DNA of 64,000 bases from Bradyrhizobium sp. SK17 (GTDB taxonomy: Bacteria > Pseudomonadota > Alphaproteobacteria > Rhizobiales > Xanthobacteraceae), in assembly GCF_002831585.1 (NCBI RefSeq), contig NZ_CP025113.1:1798001-1862000 (forward strand). Direction: 5' to 3'. The notes under the pieces are model-generated. The model worked only from the letters and a program-made list of their open reading frames with translations, was not told where the DNA came from and made no database searches. Of the stretch, positions 1 to 8,438 are shown piece after piece (the stretch's first letter is position 1; each line of letters begins with the position of its first letter). Made by a program: the position numbers and the translations under genes.

Positions 1-880
1 GGCCGGTATAATCGATGCGGCGCTGGTCGAGATCGACCGCGATCCGGCCGCCGCGCGCGGCGAGAACCGCGCGCCATACCTTGAAGCCCTGCAAGATCGC
101 CTGCTCCCACTCGCCCGTCGTGCACTGCTTGACCTCCAGATGCGAGGTCATGTCCTTGATCGTGCGCAAGAGCTGGAAGTCGAGCACGCTAACGCCCTCG
201 AGCATATGATGGCGCCGGGCATAATCGAAGGCGAGCGCGGCCACACCCTCTTCGATCACTGCGGCGCGCCCGCCATCCTCGACCTCGTCGAGCAGCGGGC
301 GGCTCTTGCGCTTGCGGCGGAGCAGCGCGCGCGTGATCGGCGACCAGCCCAGCACGGCGGCATATGCGAAATGGAAGACGTCGTGGAAGCGGTAGCCATC
401 CGGATCATAGGCGTTATCAGTCAGCTCCCCGCCGAACGGCTTGCCGTTGATCGACACGCGAACCCGCTGGCGATCTTCGCCTTCGACATCAACCAGTTCG
501 ACCTCGAACCGGCGCGGAAGGCGCTCGCCTTCGGGCAGGGTCGCATCGAAGCACAGCGGCTCGGTGCGCTCCGTCGCCCAGCGCGCCTTCACCTTCGCAA
601 GGTTCGAAACCGCTATCTCGTCGAGAGTCAGGTCGAACTTGCTGGCGACGTTCGCGATGTACCAGAGCAGATCGCCCAGCTCTTCGGACACGCGCTCCTT
701 GAAGAGCCGGTGCGCTTCGCCGTCGCGCAGATGTTTCTTGTATTCGCTCAGGAGCTGGCCGGTTTCGCCGGCGAGACCTAGCATGGGAACGATGAGGGAA
801 AGGACATCATCCGAGCCCTGGCGCGCCGGGACGCGATCAGTGCGCAGAGCCTCCTTCTGATAGCGGTCGAAATCCATCAT
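1..880 (-). CDS. MazG-like nucleoside triphosphate pyrophosphohydrolase family protein (3' end beyond window)
   Basis: Leftward gene cut by the left edge; about 293 residues are visible. The ATG at 880 follows a strong GAAGGAG about 4 bases upstream. Residues 1-105 read as an all-alpha MazG-like NTP pyrophosphatase: LAGETGQLLSEYKK followed by EELGDLLWYIANVASKF supply the acidic metal-binding residues of the family. A second acidic helical part follows (HDVFHFAY, then DEVEDGGRA and EEGVAAL). Such enzymes hydrolyse (d)NTPs to NMP and PPi. As the last visible gene of the putative base-modification operon it could trim the nucleotide pool or remove a modified dNTP; that role is inference. Confidence 0.75.
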   Translation of the reverse strand, partial: MMDFDRYQKEALRTDRVPARQGSDDVLSLIVPMLGLAGETGQLLSEYKKHLRDGEAHRLFKERVSEELGDLLWYIANVASKFDLTLDEIAVSNLAKVKARWATERTEPLCFDATLPEGERLPRRFEVELVDVEGEDRQRVRVSINGKPFGGELTDNAYDPDGYRFHDVFHFAYAAVLGWSPITRALLRRKRKSRPLLDEVEDGGRAAVIEEGVAALAFDYARRHHMLEGVSVLDFQLLRTIKDMTSHLEVKQCTTGEWEQAILQGFKVWRAVLAARGGRIAVDLDQRRIDYTG

Positions 881-896
881 CGTCTCCTTCGGCGCT

Positions 897-1140
897 TCAT
901 CCAGCGGCGGCCCTGGCCGCGTCGACTGCGCCAAGCGGCGTGTCGGCGCCGGCGCGTATCTTCTCGTTCAACTTCCATTTGGGAGGATAGAAGAGCTCGA
1001 TCGGAGTCAGAGTTGGCTCGAACTTCTGCTTGATCCGCGTGCGGCCGGTTCGCCCCGCGACCTGCGGGTGCGCGACGCGCGCATATTTGTCGACTTCGCA
1101 GAACAAATTCTGGCAGTCGATCAATTGGAGCCGCCGCCCC
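897..1140 (-). pseudogene. C-terminal fragment of the hypermodification-type kinase, displaced by a frameshift
   Basis: This reading frame continues the upstream gene after a one-base shift. It reads GRRLQLIDCQNLFCEVDKYA, then a conserved basic segment (GRTGRTRIKQKF) and FYPPKWKLN, ending with TGA at 897-899. The upstream frame stops at 1121 just after LDFQSLWG. One extra G in the G4 run (CCCC on the plus strand, 1137-1140) fuses the two into a protein of about 395 residues. The fragment has no start or ribosome binding site of its own. It is either a real inactivating mutation or a homopolymer error. It ends 17 bases before the MazG-like start. Confidence 0.75.
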
Positions 1141-2080
1141 AAAGCGATTGAAAATCTAGCCCAAGTCGCTCGAACTCCTGCTCCTGGAGATCTGCCATGA
1201 GCCGGATCAGTTCGGGCTCGTTGAGTCCTCCGGGATCGGCGAAGCATTTGCGCAGCCCGTCTCGCGCGCCGGGACCTGGCACGACGAAGTCCATCTCGCT
1301 GAAATCGGTGATTTCGCTGTAGTTGATGTCGGTGATGAACTGATAGGCGAGGAAATCGCCGATGGTCGGATAAGCGCGAAGCTTCTCGAAGCCCTCCTGC
1401 ATGGTGCGAGTTTGCGCCAACCGTTCTGGAAGCCGATCCTCCATCATGCGTTCAAGCAACAACAGATGGTTCTGATGCTTGGCGGGCCTGCCGAACGCGC
1501 TGCTTCCCGGCGGCATGATGTAGGCGGCCGAATAGATGCGGCGACCGTCACGCATCGCCCGTGCGAGCACCTCATCGTAGCGCGAGAAGTGGTAATCCTC
1601 GAACGTGATCGGTCCGAACGATCGTTCCAGCAGATCCCAGGTCTCGATCTTGTTGAACAGCTTGAACAGCAGAATGCGAAAGAAGACTTCTCGGGGCGAA
1701 TTCGGTAAATCGGCGCGATAGATGACGCGCCGAATCATATACTGGCTCGCCCGATCCGAAGCCCGATAGGCGTTGGTGAACTTGTAAGTCGTGAGCACCG
1801 CGTTGCCGGTCCAAGGACGCTCCTCGCCGCGTGCTCGTCGGAAGAAGACGTCCTGTCGTTCGGCGGCGAAGCGCCAATAGCTCTCATAGACCTCCGAGAC
1901 CTTGGCGGGCGCGAGATGGCGCAGAATGATCGGCGCCGGCGCGGCTGTGGCAGATGCCTCGTTCGCCCTCGGCACGACGGGTAGGTCGAGCGGTAGCGTG
2001 GCGGCTGTGGGATCGATGCGCTGTTTTGGCGGGCGGCCGCGCGGGCGTTTGGCGGCAGGCTTTGGGAGCTTCTTCCTCAA
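1121..2080 (-). CDS. HMUDK / base-hypermodification-type nucleotide kinase domain protein (C-terminus frameshifted)
   Basis: 319 residues as read, starting at a TTG that overlaps the stop of the thymidylate-synthase-like gene (TTGA). The N-terminus is lysine/arginine/proline-rich and contains KRPRGRPPKQ, an AT-hook-like DNA-binding motif. The core resembles, from memory, the helical domain of 5-hydroxymethyl-dU DNA kinases and thymine pyrophosphorylases: residues about 70-130 carry ERQDVFFRRARG, PWTGNAVLTTYKFTNAYRAS and IRRVIYRA; later come KHQNHLL, YPTIGDFLAYQ and VPGPGARDGLRKCF. Such proteins act on modified thymine in DNA in phage systems. The frame breaks after LDFQSLWG at a G4 run, and about 75 conserved residues lie in the next frame (897-1140). 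Chromosomal members have no known substrate. Confidence 0.68.
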   Translation of the reverse strand: MRKKLPKPAAKRPRGRPPKQRIDPTAATLPLDLPVVPRANEASATAAPAPIILRHLAPAKVSEVYESYWRFAAERQDVFFRRARGEERPWTGNAVLTTYKFTNAYRASDRASQYMIRRVIYRADLPNSPREVFFRILLFKLFNKIETWDLLERSFGPITFEDYHFSRYDEVLARAMRDGRRIYSAAYIMPPGSSAFGRPAKHQNHLLLLERMMEDRLPERLAQTRTMQEGFEKLRAYPTIGDFLAYQFITDINYSEITDFSEMDFVVPGPGARDGLRKCFADPGGLNEPELIRLMADLQEQEFERLGLDFQSLWGGGSN

Positions 2081-2931
2081 GACTCTGCCCCGATGGCCAT
2101 GACCGGAACTGCGGGCCGTGCCGGCGCCGCGACAGAGCCAGACACCAGTGCTTCGGCGGCGACGACGAGCGGCGCGAAATCGGGATCGCTCTTAGTAATG
2201 CGCTCCAGCTTGGCGACACCTACCATGACATTCAGCCGCGCCAGCGGTATATCCATTTCATGGGCCATGAAGGCGCCAAGCTGGGCGAGGCCGAGATAGT
2301 TGCCATAGGCTTTGTCGAAAACTTGCTGGGTCGCATAGAAGGCGTTCACGACCAAGCCGGCGGTGGTCGGCTCGAAGCTGACCTGTTGCAGGCAAGGAAA
2401 GCCGAGCTGCGCGCTCGCGACATGATCGCGGCCCGGGTCGAACGTCGTCGCCTGCAACATCGAGCGGCGCACGCCCGCTCGCGAACCATACTGTGACAAT
2501 ATCCACTCCAACTGATTTCCGTCGCACGGCCCGCGGCCGTACATAACCATGCGTTCGAAATATAGGCCGCGGCCATTGGCTTTCTTATTCATCGCCTGCC
2601 AGCGCGGGAATGTCGCACGATAGAGTGTAAAAAGGCGGGTGCGGTCGCCACGCGACATCTCCCAAAGGCGCTGAGGAAAGATGGTGAAGGCGACATCCTC
2701 GACCTTGAGACGTCCCTTGCGTTTGAGGAGCTGATCGACGGCTTGGCGCACGGCCGGATCTTCAGGCACTACACCATTGCCGTCGAATCCGGTCACGCTC
2801 AACACCAGCGGCGAGACCTCGGTGCCGGCGCCGTCGAGAACCCTGAGCAGGAGGCGCGACCAAGCACGCGACAGGTTGTCGTCGTTGATCATGACGGGCT
2901 CCGGCGCGGCCGATGTTTTCGACTTACTCAT
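2077..2931 (-). CDS. Thymidylate-synthase-like protein, putative pyrimidine (hydroxy)methylase
   Basis: 284 residues from the ATG at 2931, which has GGAGG nine bases upstream and overlaps the end of the peptidase gene; an in-frame start at 2973 lacks this signal. The C-terminal half has the thymidylate synthase fold pattern: RRSMLQATTFDP, then FPCLQQVSF with the candidate nucleophile Cys180, then a strand-helix block with YGNYLGLAQLGAFMAHEM. Thymidylate synthase superfamily members methylate or hydroxymethylate dUMP or dCMP. Next to a hmdU-kinase-like gene, dUMP hydroxymethylation is the simplest guess. Overall similarity to housekeeping ThyA is low, so the substrate is open. Confidence 0.62.
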   Translation of the reverse strand: MSKSKTSAAPEPVMINDDNLSRAWSRLLLRVLDGAGTEVSPLVLSVTGFDGNGVVPEDPAVRQAVDQLLKRKGRLKVEDVAFTIFPQRLWEMSRGDRTRLFTLYRATFPRWQAMNKKANGRGLYFERMVMYGRGPCDGNQLEWILSQYGSRAGVRRSMLQATTFDPGRDHVASAQLGFPCLQQVSFEPTTAGLVVNAFYATQQVFDKAYGNYLGLAQLGAFMAHEMDIPLARLNVMVGVAKLERITKSDPDFAPLVVAAEALVSGSVAAPARPAVPVMAIGAES

Positions 2932-3817
2932 CCGGGTCGTCCTCCAGATGGCGGTATTGGGCGAGCCCGACATAGGCCTCGGGTGCGATACGAACGAACA
3001 CCGCCCAAGCGCCGCTGTTGGCGCTTGCCTGAACGATTCCAGGCCGCACCGCGCGGAACAGACGACCGCTCGCTAGCTCGCACTCGTAGGCGAGGCTAGC
3101 GCCGGTCGTCTCCGTTCCCGGCGGAAGCAGCAACAGCATCTTCACCTCAGCGTCGAGGGTCGATCCCGCTCGATGGCGGTCGGCGATGATCAGGGGTTCG
3201 GGTGTCAGGGCACCGAGGATGTCGGCGCGTAGGGCCTTTGGCGTCACGCGCTGCAGGGCGGCGGCGCGCGCCCGCGATATCATGTTCACACCGGCCGAGA
3301 GGTGGGTGAGGAGCGTGCGGTAGCCGACGCCGAAGTCGCAGGCGATCATGAACATTTGCGCCGCCGTCGCGGTCTCAGGTTTCCAGCCGCGTGTGGCGAA
3401 TGCGCGGCGCAGACCCATGGTCGGCATCAGGGTGAAGCCCGCAAACGTATCTGCGAGGAATTCCTTGGGATCTTCCCAGGGGTTCTCCTTAGCACCTTCG
3501 CGCAACTCATCGATCGACGAGCCGTGGCCGAAGACGTGATGGCCAAGCTCGTGCGCGCAATTATAGGCGCGCCGAGGCAGCGGGCGGCGAGCCGAGAGGT
3601 GGATGCGCGGCGGCGCGGCGCGTTGGTACATCCCCTCCATGTTGATGTTATTGAAACGCACCGTGACGCCGAGCGTCTCGGAAAGCCCATAGATGCAGAT
3701 CGGGCCATGCTGATCGAGCTTGGCTTTCGCTCGGGTGGCAATGGCCGTGTGCATAGCTTGGGTCGCAAGCGCGCGACGATTGAAGCTGGGCTTGTTGGTG
3801 CGCATCAGGTCCATCAC
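2924..3817 (-). CDS. ImmA/IrrE-type zinc metallopeptidase
   Basis: 297 residues. The GTG at 3817 overlaps the repressor stop (GTGA) with GGGAGG six bases upstream; the ATG at 3814 is equally possible. The HExxH zinc motif HELGH lies at residues 89-93, followed by KEFLADTFAGF, the usual ImmA/IrrE continuation. This family cleaves or antagonises HTH repressors of mobile elements under stress. The XRE-type repressor is encoded immediately upstream in the same operon, so the pair probably forms a repressor/anti-repressor switch for the hypermodification genes. The C-terminal 150 residues are a variable domain that I do not recognise. Confidence 0.82.
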   Translation of the reverse strand: MMDLMRTNKPSFNRRALATQAMHTAIATRAKAKLDQHGPICIYGLSETLGVTVRFNNINMEGMYQRAAPPRIHLSARRPLPRRAYNCAHELGHHVFGHGSSIDELREGAKENPWEDPKEFLADTFAGFTLMPTMGLRRAFATRGWKPETATAAQMFMIACDFGVGYRTLLTHLSAGVNMISRARAAALQRVTPKALRADILGALTPEPLIIADRHRAGSTLDAEVKMLLLLPPGTETTGASLAYECELASGRLFRAVRPGIVQASANSGAWAVFVRIAPEAYVGLAQYRHLEDDPDE

Positions 3818-4185
3818 CGATCGCCTCCCTCGGCGTTCGGGGTGGAATCGCTGCGCATGGCTGCGAGGAGCTTCAGCAGGCGGTCGAGGTCGTCCGGCTT
3901 GAGCTTGGTGAGTTCACGGGCGGCGAGTTCGAGTCGGGGATCCTGAGCATCGAGGGTATCCGGTGCCTCGCCGAGCAGCCAGGCGACGCCCACATCATAG
4001 ATTTCGGCAAGGCGCGCGAGTTCGTCGGCCGAGACCCGGCGGTTGCCGGCCTCTATCTCCGAGACCGACGGCCGGTGTAAGCCGAGTATCTTGGCCACCT
4101 GGCCCTGCGAGAGCCCCGCGAGTTTGCGCGCCTCCTTAAGGCGTTCGGCGATCAGGGCGCGCTTGGCGGCTTCGGCGTCATTCAT
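3814..4185 (-). CDS. XRE-family HTH transcriptional repressor
   Basis: 123 residues from the ATG at 4185, which overlaps the stop of the upstream small gene (ATGA). A Cro/C1-type helix-turn-helix occupies residues about 12-65: LSQGQVAKILGLHRPSVSEI, then GNRRVSADELARLAEIYDV. A short helical tail rich in leucine and lysine follows. Its position before the ImmA-like gene, and the perfect palindrome at 4515-4529 in front of the operon, suggest autoregulation and control of both divergent operons. That is inference; the HTH itself is clear. Confidence 0.88.
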   Translation of the reverse strand: MNDAEAAKRALIAERLKEARKLAGLSQGQVAKILGLHRPSVSEIEAGNRRVSADELARLAEIYDVGVAWLLGEAPDTLDAQDPRLELAARELTKLKPDDLDRLLKLLAAMRSDSTPNAEGGDR

Positions 4186-4487
4186 GCGGCGGCCGCTTCT
4201 TTCTCGGTCTGCCTCTTCAGCAGTTCGCACACGAAGGCGGCTGTTTCGTCGATAGAGCGCGGCAACTTGGTCGTCTCGTCGACGAAGATGTTCACGTCGT
4301 TCGGGATCGACGCGCCGATCTCGGTCGACAGGATAGTCGTGGCGACAGGCCAGACTTTGCTGTCGAACCTCGGGATATTTTCGACCGGCTTGGTCGCGCC
4401 CGTCAGCGGCGGGCATTCGAGGCCGCTATCAGCCTGAATCTGGCCGAGGACGGCGATCAATTTCTCTTTGAGCTTGGCGGCATCCAT
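4182..4487 (-). CDS. Small hypothetical protein, first gene of the hypermodification operon
   Basis: 101 residues. The ATG at 4487 is chosen because AAGGAG lies eight bases upstream, whereas the in-frame ATG at 4511 would abut the palindrome at 4515-4529 and leave no ribosome binding site. The sequence is soluble, has no signal peptide, contains GLECPPLTG and a C-terminal helix ending in alanines. I recognise no domain. Its ATGA overlap with the repressor gene shows translational coupling, so it belongs to the regulatory front end of the operon. Confidence 0.65.
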   Translation of the reverse strand: MDAAKLKEKLIAVLGQIQADSGLECPPLTGATKPVENIPRFDSKVWPVATTILSTEIGASIPNDVNIFVDETTKLPRSIDETAAFVCELLKRQTEKEAAAA

Positions 4488-4514: not shown

Positions 4515-4529
4515 GTAAGATAATCTTAC
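4515..4529. promoter_or_regulatory. Perfect 15-bp palindrome, candidate operator between divergent operons
   Basis: GTAAGAT-A-ATCTTAC is a perfect seven-base inverted repeat around one central base. It sits in an AT-rich patch inside the 97-bp gap between the leftward hypermodification operon and the rightward nuclease operon. TAAGAT within it resembles a -10 element. The size and symmetry suit an XRE dimer, and the operon encodes one. The site lies 28 bases before the leftward start chosen at 4487 and 56 before the rightward ATG at 4585. Confidence 0.6.
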
Positions 4530-4584: not shown

Positions 4585-6552
4585 ATGTTCATCGAACGCT
4601 TGATCCTGACCAATTTCCGCTGCTTCGGTCCCGAACCCGGATCGATCGACCTGGCGTCCGGCTTGACCGCGTTTGTGGGGGTAAATGGTGCCGGCAAGAC
4701 AGCGGTCATGCAGGCACTGCAACGCCTGTTCGGGGTGACCGGCGACCAACGCCGCCTGCGGCGTCAGGACTTCCATGTGCCGGTCGCCGAAGCCGCACCG
4801 GCGCGACAGCGGGCCTTCGTGATCGAAGCGATCCTCGCCTTCCCCGAGCTCGATGCGGAAGGCGGCGACAACGCCGCCGTGCCAGAGTTCTTCCACCAGA
4901 TGGCCGCGGACGACGCTGGCAGGCTGAAATGTCGCCTACGCCTACAGGCGACTTGGACTGAAGACGGCTCCCTTGACGGCGCCATCGAACAGAAATTCTG
5001 GGCGATCCGAACATTCGGCGATTTCACCGAGACCGACTGCATCGAGTTGAAAGCGATCGACCGCGCCCGCGTTCAGATGATCTACGTTCCTGCGGCGCGC
5101 GACGGCGCTTCGCAGGTGACGGCGTTCCTGCGCGGGCGGCTTTGGCGCGCCATCGACTGGTCGCAGGAAGTGAGGGACGTTTTCGCCGAAGCCGGCGCCA
5201 CCTTGAACGGGGCGTTCGGCGGAGAGGCAGCCGTCGATCTGGTGGCCGCGGCGGTCAAGCGGCGCTGGCAGGAAGTGCATAGCGCGGGCACCGATACGAC
5301 TCCTGTCTTTCGACCGCTCGATCTGCGGTTTCAGGAATTCATCCGCAAGGTTGAGGTCGTCTTTCACCCCGACGAAGCTGGTCGCGAGCGCAGTCTCGAC
5401 GATCTCAGCGATGGGCAGCGTTCGCTTTTCCATCTCGCCATGACCGCCGCCATTCTTGATGTCGAAGCGCGAATCGCTGCGGACCCGGCTGGAATCGGCT
5501 TCCAGGCGGACGGTGTCTCGCTGCCTGCCCTGACTCTGATCGCAGTCGAGGAGCCAGAGAACAATCTCGCGCCGTTTTATCTGTCGCGGATCATCCGGCA
5601 GATCGAAGACCTGACACGCGGGAGGCGCGCACAAGCGGTGGTCTCCAGCCACTCGCCAAGCATTCTCGCGCGCATCGACCCGACACAAGTCCGGCATTTT
5701 CGCCTCGATCCGGCCGACCGCACGGCGAAGGTTCGTCCGATCCGGCTGCCCGAAGGTCAGGAAGCGGCATCGAAATTTGTGCGCGAGGCAGTGCGAACCT
5801 ATCCAGAACTATATTTCGCGCGCTTCGCGGTTTTGGGAGAAGGCGCTTCGGAGGAAGTCGTGTTGCCGCGGTTGGCAGACGCGCTCGGCTTCGCGATCGA
5901 TCGCTCGTTCGTGGCCGTCGTTCCGCTCGGCGGCCGGCATGTGAACCATCTCTGGCGCCTCCTAACGGACCTCGACATTCCCTACGCGACGCTGCTGGAC
6001 CTCGACTGGGGTCGGGCCGGGGGCGGCTGGGGTCGCGTCAAGACGGCGTGCACGCAATTGCTAGAAAATGGCGTCACGCCGCGTGCGTTGTTCGGTGAAC
6101 ACCTTCAAGCTGATGGCCCGGCCGCGAACCTCGCCGCGTTCGATCGCCTCGCTGCCGATGACTCCAACAATCTTGATGCTTGGGCAAAGTGGCTGCGCCA
6201 GTTTGGCGTGTTCTTCTGCGCGCCGCTCGATCTGGACTATTCGATGCTGCGCGCCTTCCCCGCCGCGTATCAGGTGGCGGAGCCCAATCGGCAGGGACCC
6301 TCGAACCGCGGCGATCCACGGACGGCGGTACTCGGCGACGACGGATTACCAGCGCTATATCCAGCTGATCAGGATGGGCTGCTACGTTGGTATCGCTACC
6401 TCTTCCTCGGCCGCGGCAAGCCGAGCACGCACGTCCGGGTGTTGAGTGGCATGGCGGCCGCGGATCTCGCGGCCGGCGCGCCGGAGGAGCTGCGCGCGCT
6501 GCTCACCGCGATCGTCGCACGGCTTGAGCCGCCGGCGCCGGTGGAAGCCTGA
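4585..6552 (+). CDS. OLD-family ATPase/TOPRIM endonuclease (GajA-like)
   Basis: 655 residues. The N-terminal half is an SMC/RecF-type ABC ATPase: Walker A GVNGAGKT at residues 32-39, signature LSDGQRSLFHLA, Walker B LTLIAVEEPENN and an SSHSPSIL switch. The second half has a TOPRIM nuclease pattern: VLGEGASEEVVLPRLA, then LLDLDWGR as the acidic metal-binding loop. This order is that of OLD nucleases and GajA of the Gabija system, with a UvrD-like helicase two bases downstream as in Gabija. GajA homologues cut DNA when nucleotide pools fall during phage infection. A weak G-rich ribosome binding site lies far upstream, so the start is moderately sure. Confidence 0.85.
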   Translation: MFIERLILTNFRCFGPEPGSIDLASGLTAFVGVNGAGKTAVMQALQRLFGVTGDQRRLRRQDFHVPVAEAAPARQRAFVIEAILAFPELDAEGGDNAAVPEFFHQMAADDAGRLKCRLRLQATWTEDGSLDGAIEQKFWAIRTFGDFTETDCIELKAIDRARVQMIYVPAARDGASQVTAFLRGRLWRAIDWSQEVRDVFAEAGATLNGAFGGEAAVDLVAAAVKRRWQEVHSAGTDTTPVFRPLDLRFQEFIRKVEVVFHPDEAGRERSLDDLSDGQRSLFHLAMTAAILDVEARIAADPAGIGFQADGVSLPALTLIAVEEPENNLAPFYLSRIIRQIEDLTRGRRAQAVVSSHSPSILARIDPTQVRHFRLDPADRTAKVRPIRLPEGQEAASKFVREAVRTYPELYFARFAVLGEGASEEVVLPRLADALGFAIDRSFVAVVPLGGRHVNHLWRLLTDLDIPYATLLDLDWGRAGGGWGRVKTACTQLLENGVTPRALFGEHLQADGPAANLAAFDRLAADDSNNLDAWAKWLRQFGVFFCAPLDLDYSMLRAFPAAYQVAEPNRQGPSNRGDPRTAVLGDDGLPALYPADQDGLLRWYRYLFLGRGKPSTHVRVLSGMAAADLAAGAPEELRALLTAIVARLEPPAPVEA

Positions 6553-6554
6553 CC

Positions 6555-8438
6555 ATGCCGCGCGTTCGGCCGGACGACTGGCGACCGCGAGGGATAGAGG
6601 ACCTCGAACCCCAGGCTTGGCGAGCGCTCCGTCAGGCCGGCTGCACCTGTGTCGTCGCCGGGCCTGGCGCCGGCAAGACGGAGTTCTTGGCGCAGCGTGC
6701 GGTTTATCTGCTCGAGACAGGCGCTTGTCCGCCGCCCTATCGGGTACTCGCCATTTCGTTCAAGACCGATGCGGCCGACAATCTCGCAGCGCGCGTGCGG
6801 CAACGGTGTCCGCCCGAGTTGGCGGGCCGCTTCGTCTCGCTCACCTTTGACGCCTTCACCAAGGGCTTGGTCGACCGCTTCACCACCGCCATCCCGCCCG
6901 ATTGGCGCCCAGGTCGGCCCTACGATATCGCGTTCCCGACACGGCGACAGGTTGAAGGATTCCTCGACCAGACGCGCCTCGGCGCCCCGCCGCAATGGCA
7001 GTCCGCGATTGCGGGCTTCGGGGTCGGAGATTTCGAGTCGCGACATGTGGGTGGTCACCGCCTGCCGGTAATTCGCGCCGAGCCGGCGTCTGGCGAGGAA
7101 TATGCTGTCGATCGTTGGTGGCACGGCCAAATTCGAGGGCGGGCGCGGGCGTCACTTACCTTCGTCAGCCTCAATCGCCTCGCCGAACTGTTGTTGAGGG
7201 CGAACCCGCAGATTCGCCACGCGTTGCGGGCGACGTATCCCTTCGTCTTCGTCGACGAATTCCAGGACACGACTTACGCGCAGTACGATTTCCTCCTCTC
7301 TGCTTTCGCCGACGGCCGGACGACCGTAACCGCAGTGGGAGACGATAAGCAGCGGATTATGGCGTGGGCTGGTGCGCGGCTGGACGCGTTTCAGCGGTTT
7401 GAGGCGGATTTTGGTGCCGTCCGGATTCCCTTGGCCTTCAACTTTCGGTCGTCGCCGGGCCTCGTGCGGATTCAGCATGTGGTCGCCCGCGCATTGGACG
7501 CGAACGCGATCGCAGGCGTGGCGCAGGCTGCTCAGCTCGTGGATGGCGATGTCGCTCAGGTCTGGAACAGTCAAACGCGAGATGGCGAAGCTGAATATCT
7601 CACCCGATGGCTCGCCGAGGACATGGCGCGTCGCGGTCGGTCGCCGCGCGACTACGCCTTACTTGTTCGACAGAAGTCGGACGACTACGAAGCGGAGCTC
7701 TCTGCGCCACTTGCCCAGGCGGGCTTGCGGCTACGAAATGAGAGTCATGCGCTCGGCCGCACCACGCTGCAGGATTTGTTGGCTGACGAGCTCGCTCGCA
7801 TCGCGATCGCGCTACTGCGCCTAGGAGCGCTCCGGCGCGCGCCCGACGCGTGGCGGCTGGCGTCGAACGCGCTCCAAAGCCTGCGTGCGGTCGATCCCGA
7901 CGATGAGCTGGCTTGCCATAGGGTCGAAGCGGAACTCACCGTGTTTCTGGGGGATCTTCGAGCAGAAATGGCGCGCGCCGCGCCAACAGTGGAGAACAGC
8001 CAGACCATTACTGGTCGTCTCTTTGGATTTCTCGATCTGGGTGCGGTCGCTCGAACCTTTCTTGAGTATGGAACGGGTGAGTTGCTGGCCATCATGGTCG
8101 AAGCGTTTGGGCTGCACCTGGCGGCGTCCGTTGCTGGAGCTGCGAGCTGGTCAGCATGCCTCGACTCATTCGAAGGCGTCGCACAGATTCCGTTGATGAC
8201 GGTACACAAGAGCAAGGGCCTGGAGTACGACACGGTCATCTTCGTCGGCTTGGACGATCAAGCTTGGTGGAGCCACACGCCCGGGAATCCCGAGGGTCTA
8301 GCGACGTTCTTTGTGGCGTTGTCCCGAGCTAAGCAGAGGGCGATCTTCGCGTTCTGCCAGGGACGGGGCCAGCGCAGGCGGGTAGCGGACCTCTTTCAAC
8401 TGCTGACCGACGCCGGCGTCCCGGAGATCGCCATATGA
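6555..8438 (+). CDS. UvrD/REP-family superfamily 1 helicase (GajB-like)
   Basis: 627 residues, starting two bases after the OLD-like gene. Motif I is AGPGAGKTEF near residue 35; motif II is VFVDEFQDT near 230; motif III lies near DDKQRIMAWAGA; the late motif LMTVHKSKGLEYDTVIFV near 545 is typical of UvrD/PcrA. The C-terminus carries VALSRAKQRAIF, the ATP-sensing motif VI region. In Gabija, GajB senses DNA termini and activates GajA. This protein is longer than my recollection of GajB (about 500 residues), so it is an analogous or divergent unit. It overlaps the next gene by ATGA. Confidence 0.87.
   Translation: MPRVRPDDWRPRGIEDLEPQAWRALRQAGCTCVVAGPGAGKTEFLAQRAVYLLETGACPPPYRVLAISFKTDAADNLAARVRQRCPPELAGRFVSLTFDAFTKGLVDRFTTAIPPDWRPGRPYDIAFPTRRQVEGFLDQTRLGAPPQWQSAIAGFGVGDFESRHVGGHRLPVIRAEPASGEEYAVDRWWHGQIRGRARASLTFVSLNRLAELLLRANPQIRHALRATYPFVFVDEFQDTTYAQYDFLLSAFADGRTTVTAVGDDKQRIMAWAGARLDAFQRFEADFGAVRIPLAFNFRSSPGLVRIQHVVARALDANAIAGVAQAAQLVDGDVAQVWNSQTRDGEAEYLTRWLAEDMARRGRSPRDYALLVRQKSDDYEAELSAPLAQAGLRLRNESHALGRTTLQDLLADELARIAIALLRLGALRRAPDAWRLASNALQSLRAVDPDDELACHRVEAELTVFLGDLRAEMARAAPTVENSQTITGRLFGFLDLGAVARTFLEYGTGELLAIMVEAFGLHLAASVAGAASWSACLDSFEGVAQIPLMTVHKSKGLEYDTVIFVGLDDQAWWSHTPGNPEGLATFFVALSRAKQRAIFAFCQGRGQRRRVADLFQLLTDAGVPEIAI

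Follow-up and report, generated by a model that had tools for sequence, protein, structure and literature searches.

Genes of the operon and their enzymes

We analyzed a 64,000-nucleotide stretch of the chromosome of Bradyrhizobium sp. SK17 (referred to here as the window; positions 1798001-1862000 of the 8.29-Mb host genome). Six packed genes occupy window positions 1-4487 on the minus strand, in the order of an acyl-carrier-like protein, an XRE repressor, an ImmA/IrrE peptidase, a thymidylate synthase (TS)-like enzyme, an HMUDK_hel protein, and a MazG_C protein, with overlaps of 4 to 8 bases between neighboring genes from HMUDK_hel through the 101-amino-acid (aa) gene. A preliminary description of this DNA had proposed six overlapping or tightly spaced genes, and all six are present. 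As a unit, the cluster is well supported as a conflict operon of the base modification type. It has the following features:

4182..4487, minus strand: acyl/peptidyl-carrier-protein-like protein, 101 aa, with the putative attachment site Ser43 (motif FDSK)
3814..4185, minus strand: XRE/CapH-like repressor (PF01381, 2.6e-15; PADLOC capH, 2.5e-18)
2924..3817, minus strand: ImmA/IrrE (CapP-like) metallopeptidase, probable repressor protease (PF06114, 8.8e-14; capP, 3e-9)
2077..2931, minus strand: divergent TS-fold enzyme (Cys180 and Asn211; Ala at the ThyA Arg166 position)
1121..2080, minus strand: HMUDK_hel protein, main frame, with an AT-hook-like N terminus (PF18723, E value of 1.5e-95)
897..1247, minus strand: remaining C-terminal stretch of HMUDK_hel, out of frame with the preceding entry (model positions 302-376, E value of 2.9e-42); the slip lies near where the main frame ends
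2..880, minus strand: MazG plus MazG_C protein (PF18722, 5.4e-78), the last 41 bp of the gene lying past the window start
4515..4529, strand not applicable: palindrome GTAAGATAATCTTAC, a likely operator, upstream of the carrier gene

The acpS gene (L002:17574-17987; PF01648, 1.4e-15), a seventh component found 13 bp beyond the window edge, is convergent with the MazG_C gene and overlaps its end. The preliminary description had overlooked this gene, as well as the likely operator, an adjoining Gabija system, and a frame slip in HMUDK_hel. The MazG-like pyrophosphohydrolase gene that it named is there, the MazG domain itself (PF03819) scoring 21.1 bits, slightly below the cutoff of 22. The rest of the host genome contains one PF00303 thymidylate synthase and two further PF01648 genes, and a genome-wide profile search found no second MazG_C gene.

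The TS-like protein had no match in Pfam and was below the cutoff for NCBIfam TIGR03283 (E value of 1.5e-7). Structure comparison, in which the absence of a family from the match lists excludes nothing, confidently assigned it a TS/hydroxymethylase fold. Cys180, noted earlier, occupies the position of the TS nucleophile; in an alignment of 82 sequences, all 81 of 81 relatives share it, and the same holds for an Asn (Asn211 here). The position of ThyA Arg166, which we take to be the residue binding the 5'-phosphate, was read off an alignment with MilA and holds Ala in 75 of the 81 relatives, including the window protein, and Arg in 3. Because of this Ala, we regard the protein as a TS-fold enzyme that is not a canonical ThyA. 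When the PDB was searched with the TS-like profile, MilA, a CMP (cytidine monophosphate) hydroxymethylase, was the sole sequence match at an E value of ≤0.1 (0.0024).

HMUDK_hel scored 320 bits against a PF18723 cutoff of 25. Its best solved match was a phage DNA-base glycinyltransferase (PUGT type), with a fold of the HhH-glycosylase type. Of the structural matches anticipated in the preliminary description, the TS/hydroxymethylase fold and, by a modest match, a DNA-base glycinyltransferase fold were found, and a kinase domain was not. The window protein consists of the helical domain alone, with no P-loop kinase domain; a functional 5-hydroxymethyldeoxyuridine (5-hmdU) kinase in this copy is therefore ruled out, and the earlier term "hmdU-kinase-like" applies to the helical domain only. 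In four of seven unusual proteins scanned, the PF18723 domain was fused to a thymidylate-kinase-like domain. The AT-hook noted earlier survives as an AT-hook-like N terminus that falls below the Pfam cutoff; a similar motif was present in only 19 of 80 relatives (defined below), and we rejected it as a defining part.

Nor is the gene a single frame over 897-2080, as first described. The frame at 1121-2080 spans model positions 7-308, and positions 302-376 are encoded in the other frame, at 897-1247; all 80 relatives reach at least model position 366 in one frame. The slip in this genome may be a sequencing error or decay. Because HMUDK_hel is frame-slipped, the operon copy of strain SK17 may be inactive, sequencing error aside. 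In two other loci, a radical SAM gene directly follows HMUDK_hel (L088:11002-12063 and, by eye, L103:10494-11543), hinting at further base chemistry.

The carrier-like protein and AcpS

The 101-aa protein, previously described as being of no known kind, had no match in Pfam. A homologue is annotated as an acyl carrier protein (ACP) in Allocoleopsis and Streptomyces. Of nine relatives scanned, one exceeded the PF00550 cutoff (Streptomyces, L011; 1.2e-7), three were under it, and five had no match. Because the window protein and most scanned relatives fail this cutoff, we use the name "carrier-like" and treat the family as a remote member. A PDB search with a seven-row profile, which included the Streptomyces row, returned 55 distinct sequences at an E value of ≤1, nearly all of them carrier proteins (best, 3.4e-4). 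The alignments printed for these matches place the conserved Ser of the family on the DS motif of the PDB carriers, and 73 of 74 operon relatives retain this presumptive attachment Ser. From these profile and alignment data, the protein appears to be a carrier-like, remote acyl-carrier protein. We rejected a toxin, antitoxin, or DNA-binding factor as an identity for it; no such match was found in Pfam, PADLOC, NCBIfam, or PHROGs, and the profile finds carriers.

A second profile (21 rows, with the Streptomyces row left out) was run on two sets of 385 and 398 whole genomes. Strong matches were found in 2 and 3 genomes, respectively (the SK17 genome among them in both sets), and weak matches in 4 and 1. 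The three strong loci from other genomes were in the operon (G185 and G646) or in a remnant (G560), corresponding to L107, L106, and L105. Two weak loci (L095 and L096) had an adjoining ORF resembling a beta-ketoacyl synthase by eye. In a protein database, the carrier profile had 711 matches, some of which may be ordinary carriers; the 120 listed had no Pfam domain, and the names given were, save one misname, "hypothetical protein." The remnant, from the same genus, apparently retains only the carrier and XRE genes of the operon (L105:7910-8577) together with a near-match of the palindrome, and it lies near a Wadjet-like ATPase (by eye).

Of the 80 loci, 53 had AcpS no farther than 4.5 kb from HMUDK_hel, mostly at the MazG_C end.

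Conservation, regulation, and mobility

HMUDK_hel had 484 matches in a collection of 84,980 species, of which the best 80 (the nearest) were kept for analysis. Within 4.5 kb of HMUDK_hel, these loci contained the carrier gene (69/80), XRE (70/80), ImmA/IrrE (70/80), the TS-like gene (74/80), and MazG_C (67/80). The five genes from the carrier to HMUDK_hel were all present in 69 of the 80 loci; homologues co-occurring in an operon had been named beforehand as a check on the proposal. The complete order of carrier, XRE, ImmA/IrrE, TS-like, HMUDK_hel, and MazG_C followed by a convergent AcpS gene was seen in 37 loci, and an otherwise identical order without AcpS was seen in 14. Distances between sequences correlated among the families (0.70 to 0.92; 48 complete loci, near-duplicates included). 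The families thus travel together, by co-occurrence and by distance, and we rejected a chance gene cluster. Hosts included alpha-, beta-, and gammaproteobacteria, cyanobacteria, planctomycetes, and acidobacteria. One operon, in a record titled Bacillus sp. 2B10 (L019), ranks among those of sphingomonads and perhaps reflects contamination or mislabeling.

Of the 11 loci without the full core, five were flagged as truncated close to the left end of their contig (L029, L045, L072, L074, and L085). Different operons surround HMUDK_hel in L057, L069, L085, L086, and L091, with dCTP-deaminase-like, TIR, Nmad2-like, thymidylate kinase, and second TS genes (Pfam confirmed three of the L091 genes and similar ones in other loci, and the remainder were assigned by resemblance). 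Hybrid loci were also observed: L084, with a ThsB-type TIR and Nmad2; L028, with a metallophosphatase and a TS stretch; and L092, with a dCTP deaminase-like gene and a second TS.

A sister class was found on five further plasmids (L109-L113), in which a carrier-like ORF, XRE, ImmA/IrrE, a C1 peptidase, and a TS-like gene are followed by a uracil-DNA glycosylase (UDG) gene. XRE, ImmA/IrrE, and TS-like genes were present in 5/5 and an annotated UDG in 5/5; profile searches detected MazG_C in 4/5 and AcpS in 2/5. Pfam confirmed UDG, the C1 peptidase, and MazG_C in L112. The sister carrier-like ORFs all have a DSL or DSM motif (5/5, by eye), and the hidden Markov model of the operon's carrier did not match them. 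No HMUDK_hel match was found in the sister plasmid stretches. Because this class carries a carrier-like gene without HMUDK_hel, the carrier-like gene is independent of HMUDK_hel, and the DNA-base enzyme of the operon looks exchangeable.

The tandem XRE and ImmA/IrrE proteins match the CapH and CapP models of PADLOC, and the HExxH motif is kept in 79 of 79 ImmA/IrrE relatives. The proposal of a base modification-type operon with its own repressor and putative anti-repressor is supported. The pair presumably acts as repressor and protease. The carrier gene leads the operon and, in most loci, either overlaps xre or directly adjoins it. Upstream of it, GTAAGATWATCTTAC occurs once in the 8.29-Mb genome, at window positions 4515-4529. 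Palindrome arms in this region were at least 7 bases long in 48 of 74 loci, versus about 4 loci for shuffled sequences (20 per locus, with base content alone being kept). In 59 of 74 loci, the pattern GTAAG[AC]NNN[TG]CTTAC, composed after the sites had been seen, fell between -200 and +60 relative to the start of the carrier ORF; 5 more sites lay elsewhere in these loci, which total 1.31 Mb. The palindrome is probably a dedicated operator of the operon, and we infer that XRE binds there and is cleaved by ImmA/IrrE on a DNA signal.

The operon was initially described as chromosomal, which is true in SK17 and does not hold generally, as the operon is horizontally mobile: it is found on conjugative plasmids, on phage-like contigs, and at sites adjoining defense genes. 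Plasmids matching the carrier by tblastn were typed as conjugative in four of four cases. Among 21 plasmid records matching HMUDK_hel, 13 were inspected; five carried the operon with the carrier gene (L003, L004, L005, L007, and L011), one was a hybrid (L008), and the operon was absent from seven. A viral scan with the TS-like alignment placed the TS-like gene on three viral contigs, two of which had phage structural genes (by eye).

For the genes flanking the operon, a crude longest-ORF caller (150 to 750 aa) gave 186 eligible proteins, of which 148 were chosen by a size limit and 145 were scanned (two from L031 and one from L052 were dropped). At a PADLOC threshold of 1e-20, the 145 proteins, which flanked 52 core loci, matched 44 families, compared with 17 families for 131 control proteins; these are counts of families rather than of proteins, because several families can match one protein. 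For the control, 185 ORFs were called in 14 stretches of the genomes at hand and 131 of them were used, unmatched by species. The families shown (25 of 44; 1 to 3 members each) included AbiEi, AbiEii, HamA, GajA, GajB, KwaB, SoFic, and type IIG, and those of the control (1 or 2 members each) consisted of methyltransferases, mad3, and a GlgB-like model.

In the window, a complete-looking Gabija system is divergent from the operon:

4585-8438, plus strand: Gabija gajA-gajB (PADLOC, 6e-243 and 5e-217)

We consider it an adjoining, separate system that has only the palindrome-bearing intergenic region in common with the operon. An integrated mobile element is suggested by adjacent recombinase, ParB-like, DUF932-like, and toprim-like genes (L002:7334-17248; mostly by eye).

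Possible functions and comparison with known systems

With moderate confidence, we interpret the operon as a conflict system, mobile and under its own regulation, which would produce a modified pyrimidine of the uracil or thymine type and act on it in DNA, with a dedicated carrier protein. XRE would keep the operon off at the palindrome until ImmA/IrrE cleaves it upon a DNA damage or invasion signal. MazG_C would then make or clear nucleotides, and the TS-fold enzyme would form a C5-modified uracil nucleotide. AcpS is predicted to put a phosphopantetheine arm on the carrier, and the arm could hold a group or a nucleophile for the C5 chemistry. The DNA-glycosylase-fold protein (HMUDK_hel, or UDG in the sister class) would act on that base once it is part of DNA, probably so as to harm or mark invading DNA.

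Several observations weigh against this interpretation. The match to carriers is a distant one (best, 3.4e-4, for a profile that included the Streptomyces row), the fold match of HMUDK_hel is modest (Foldseek E value of 0.12), and the nucleotide substrate of the TS-like protein is uncertain because the phosphate-clamping Arg is absent in most relatives. AcpS was not found in 27 of 80 loci (some of them cut by contig ends), nor was MazG_C in 13 of 80 or the palindrome in 15 of 74 and in any of the sister operons. No cargo-loading enzyme for the carrier was recognized in the operon, the loci sampled are the nearest 80 of 484, and the occurrence of some loci on phage-like contigs fits self-protection as well as defense. 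The chemistry and purpose of the operon are predictions, including the modified base, the anti-phage effect, the pantetheinylation of the carrier, the target, and the cargo, as well as the initially proposed modification of host or element DNA under stress.

The operon resembles phage thymine hypermodification (a TS-type dUMP hydroxymethylase, 5-hmdU DNA kinase, and PaMx11 PUGT) in its TS-fold enzyme, PF18723 helical domain, and, by a modest match, glycinyltransferase-like fold, and also in the radical SAM genes of L088 and L103. Unlike those pathways, it is bacterial and mobile and has its own XRE and ImmA/IrrE genes and a carrier with AcpS, and the window copy has no kinase domain. With CapH-CapP of CBASS, it has the tandem XRE and ImmA/IrrE genes in common; here, they lie beside base modification genes and have their own conserved palindrome.

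Systems with TS and 5-hmdU-kinase domains were validated as anti-phage in Escherichia coli in the DefensePredictor study (PMC13092281). These systems include TS, 5-hmdU DNA kinase, dNMP kinase, and NMAD domains, and MazG, MazG-C, NMAD, and UDG domains are predicted to be defensive (PMC13092281). TS and 5-hmdU-kinase domains are common to these systems and the operon family, and variant loci of the latter carry Nmad2, TIR, thymidylate kinase, and dCTP deaminase genes. Related TS/5-hmdU-kinase systems have thus already been reported as anti-phage. The terms "acyl carrier," "carrier protein," "ImmA," and "IrrE" do not occur in the main text of PMC13092281, and a DNA-level search of E. coli genomes for a link to its systems gave no match. 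A review lists ACP as a cyanophage gene (2/153; PMC10452541). Literature searches showed us no carrier/AcpS core of such an operon, with prior mention in Iyer 2013 or Burroughs 2015 being possible. The carrier/AcpS core, the palindrome, the UDG sister class, and the breadth of the family appear to be new.

The nearest precedent that we found for carrier-type chemistry on uracil is Bacillus phage SP-15, whose DNA contains the C5-substituted base 5-(4,5-dihydroxypentyl)uracil; its presumed pathway genes include one described as an "acyl carrier protein reductase" (gene 129), numbered beside a proposed hydroxymethyluridylate synthase (gene 130) (PMC5977210). The likeness is one of gene descriptions. 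The two TS proteins of SP-15 are of the Thy1 (flavin) type, and the passages on its pathway name no carrier protein or AcpS. Because an ACP reductase is listed there for an alkylated uracil, we slightly raised our estimate for a more specific scheme, which we still consider unlikely: a carrier-protein-dependent DNA base modification, in which the TS-fold enzyme joins a carrier-held acyl/malonyl-type chain or pantetheine thiol to uracil C5. The reactive exocyclic methylene of TS chemistry would be trapped by the carrier-held nucleophile, giving an acyl- or pantetheine-derived base in DNA or a carrier-bound nucleotide, and the glycosylase-fold partner would install or excise the base.

The same genes might serve self-protection, with a plasmid, phage, or integrative element modifying its own DNA against host restriction or defenses, as thymine-hypermodified phages do. 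The conjugative plasmids and the viral contigs carrying the TS-like gene speak for this explanation, as does the presence of the HMUDK_hel family in 236 phage records, all at <60% identity. Against it, the TS-like and ImmA/IrrE proteins had no match in 50,697 phage records, defense genes are among the neighbors, and the sister class has a UDG, whose excision of bases would fit poorly; we regard self-protection as rather unlikely. We give a similarly low probability to the view that the carrier is a regulator only, sensing CoA or acyl status with XRE and ImmA/IrrE while the enzymes run an ordinary hypermodification. Housekeeping ACP binds regulators such as SpoT, the carrier gene lies first beside xre, and the sole remnant seen keeps only these two genes. 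Nevertheless, all 69 carriers in the 80 loci accompany a TS-like gene, so gene position cannot separate regulation from catalysis, and AcpS is mostly at the opposite, MazG_C end.

A small-molecule pathway seems the most doubtful of these; in it, the product of the TS-fold enzyme, carrier, and AcpS would be a nucleoside or nucleotide (a signal or antibiotic) rather than a DNA base. MilA, the only PDB sequence match of the TS-like profile, acts in the mildiomycin pathway, and carrier proteins with AcpS are typical of natural-product pathways. The DNA-glycosylase-type fold of HMUDK_hel, the UDG of the sister class, and the AT-hook-like motif in some HMUDK_hel relatives argue for DNA instead.

Carrier proteins and the enzyme that arms them are components of the synthesis of lipids, polyketides, and peptides, and an acyl-carrier-like protein accompanied by that enzyme is unexpected for DNA chemistry. 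The presence of both in a mobile operon with TS-fold and DNA-base enzymes suggests that conflict among bacteria and their invaders involves a chemistry of DNA or nucleotides that is not yet known.

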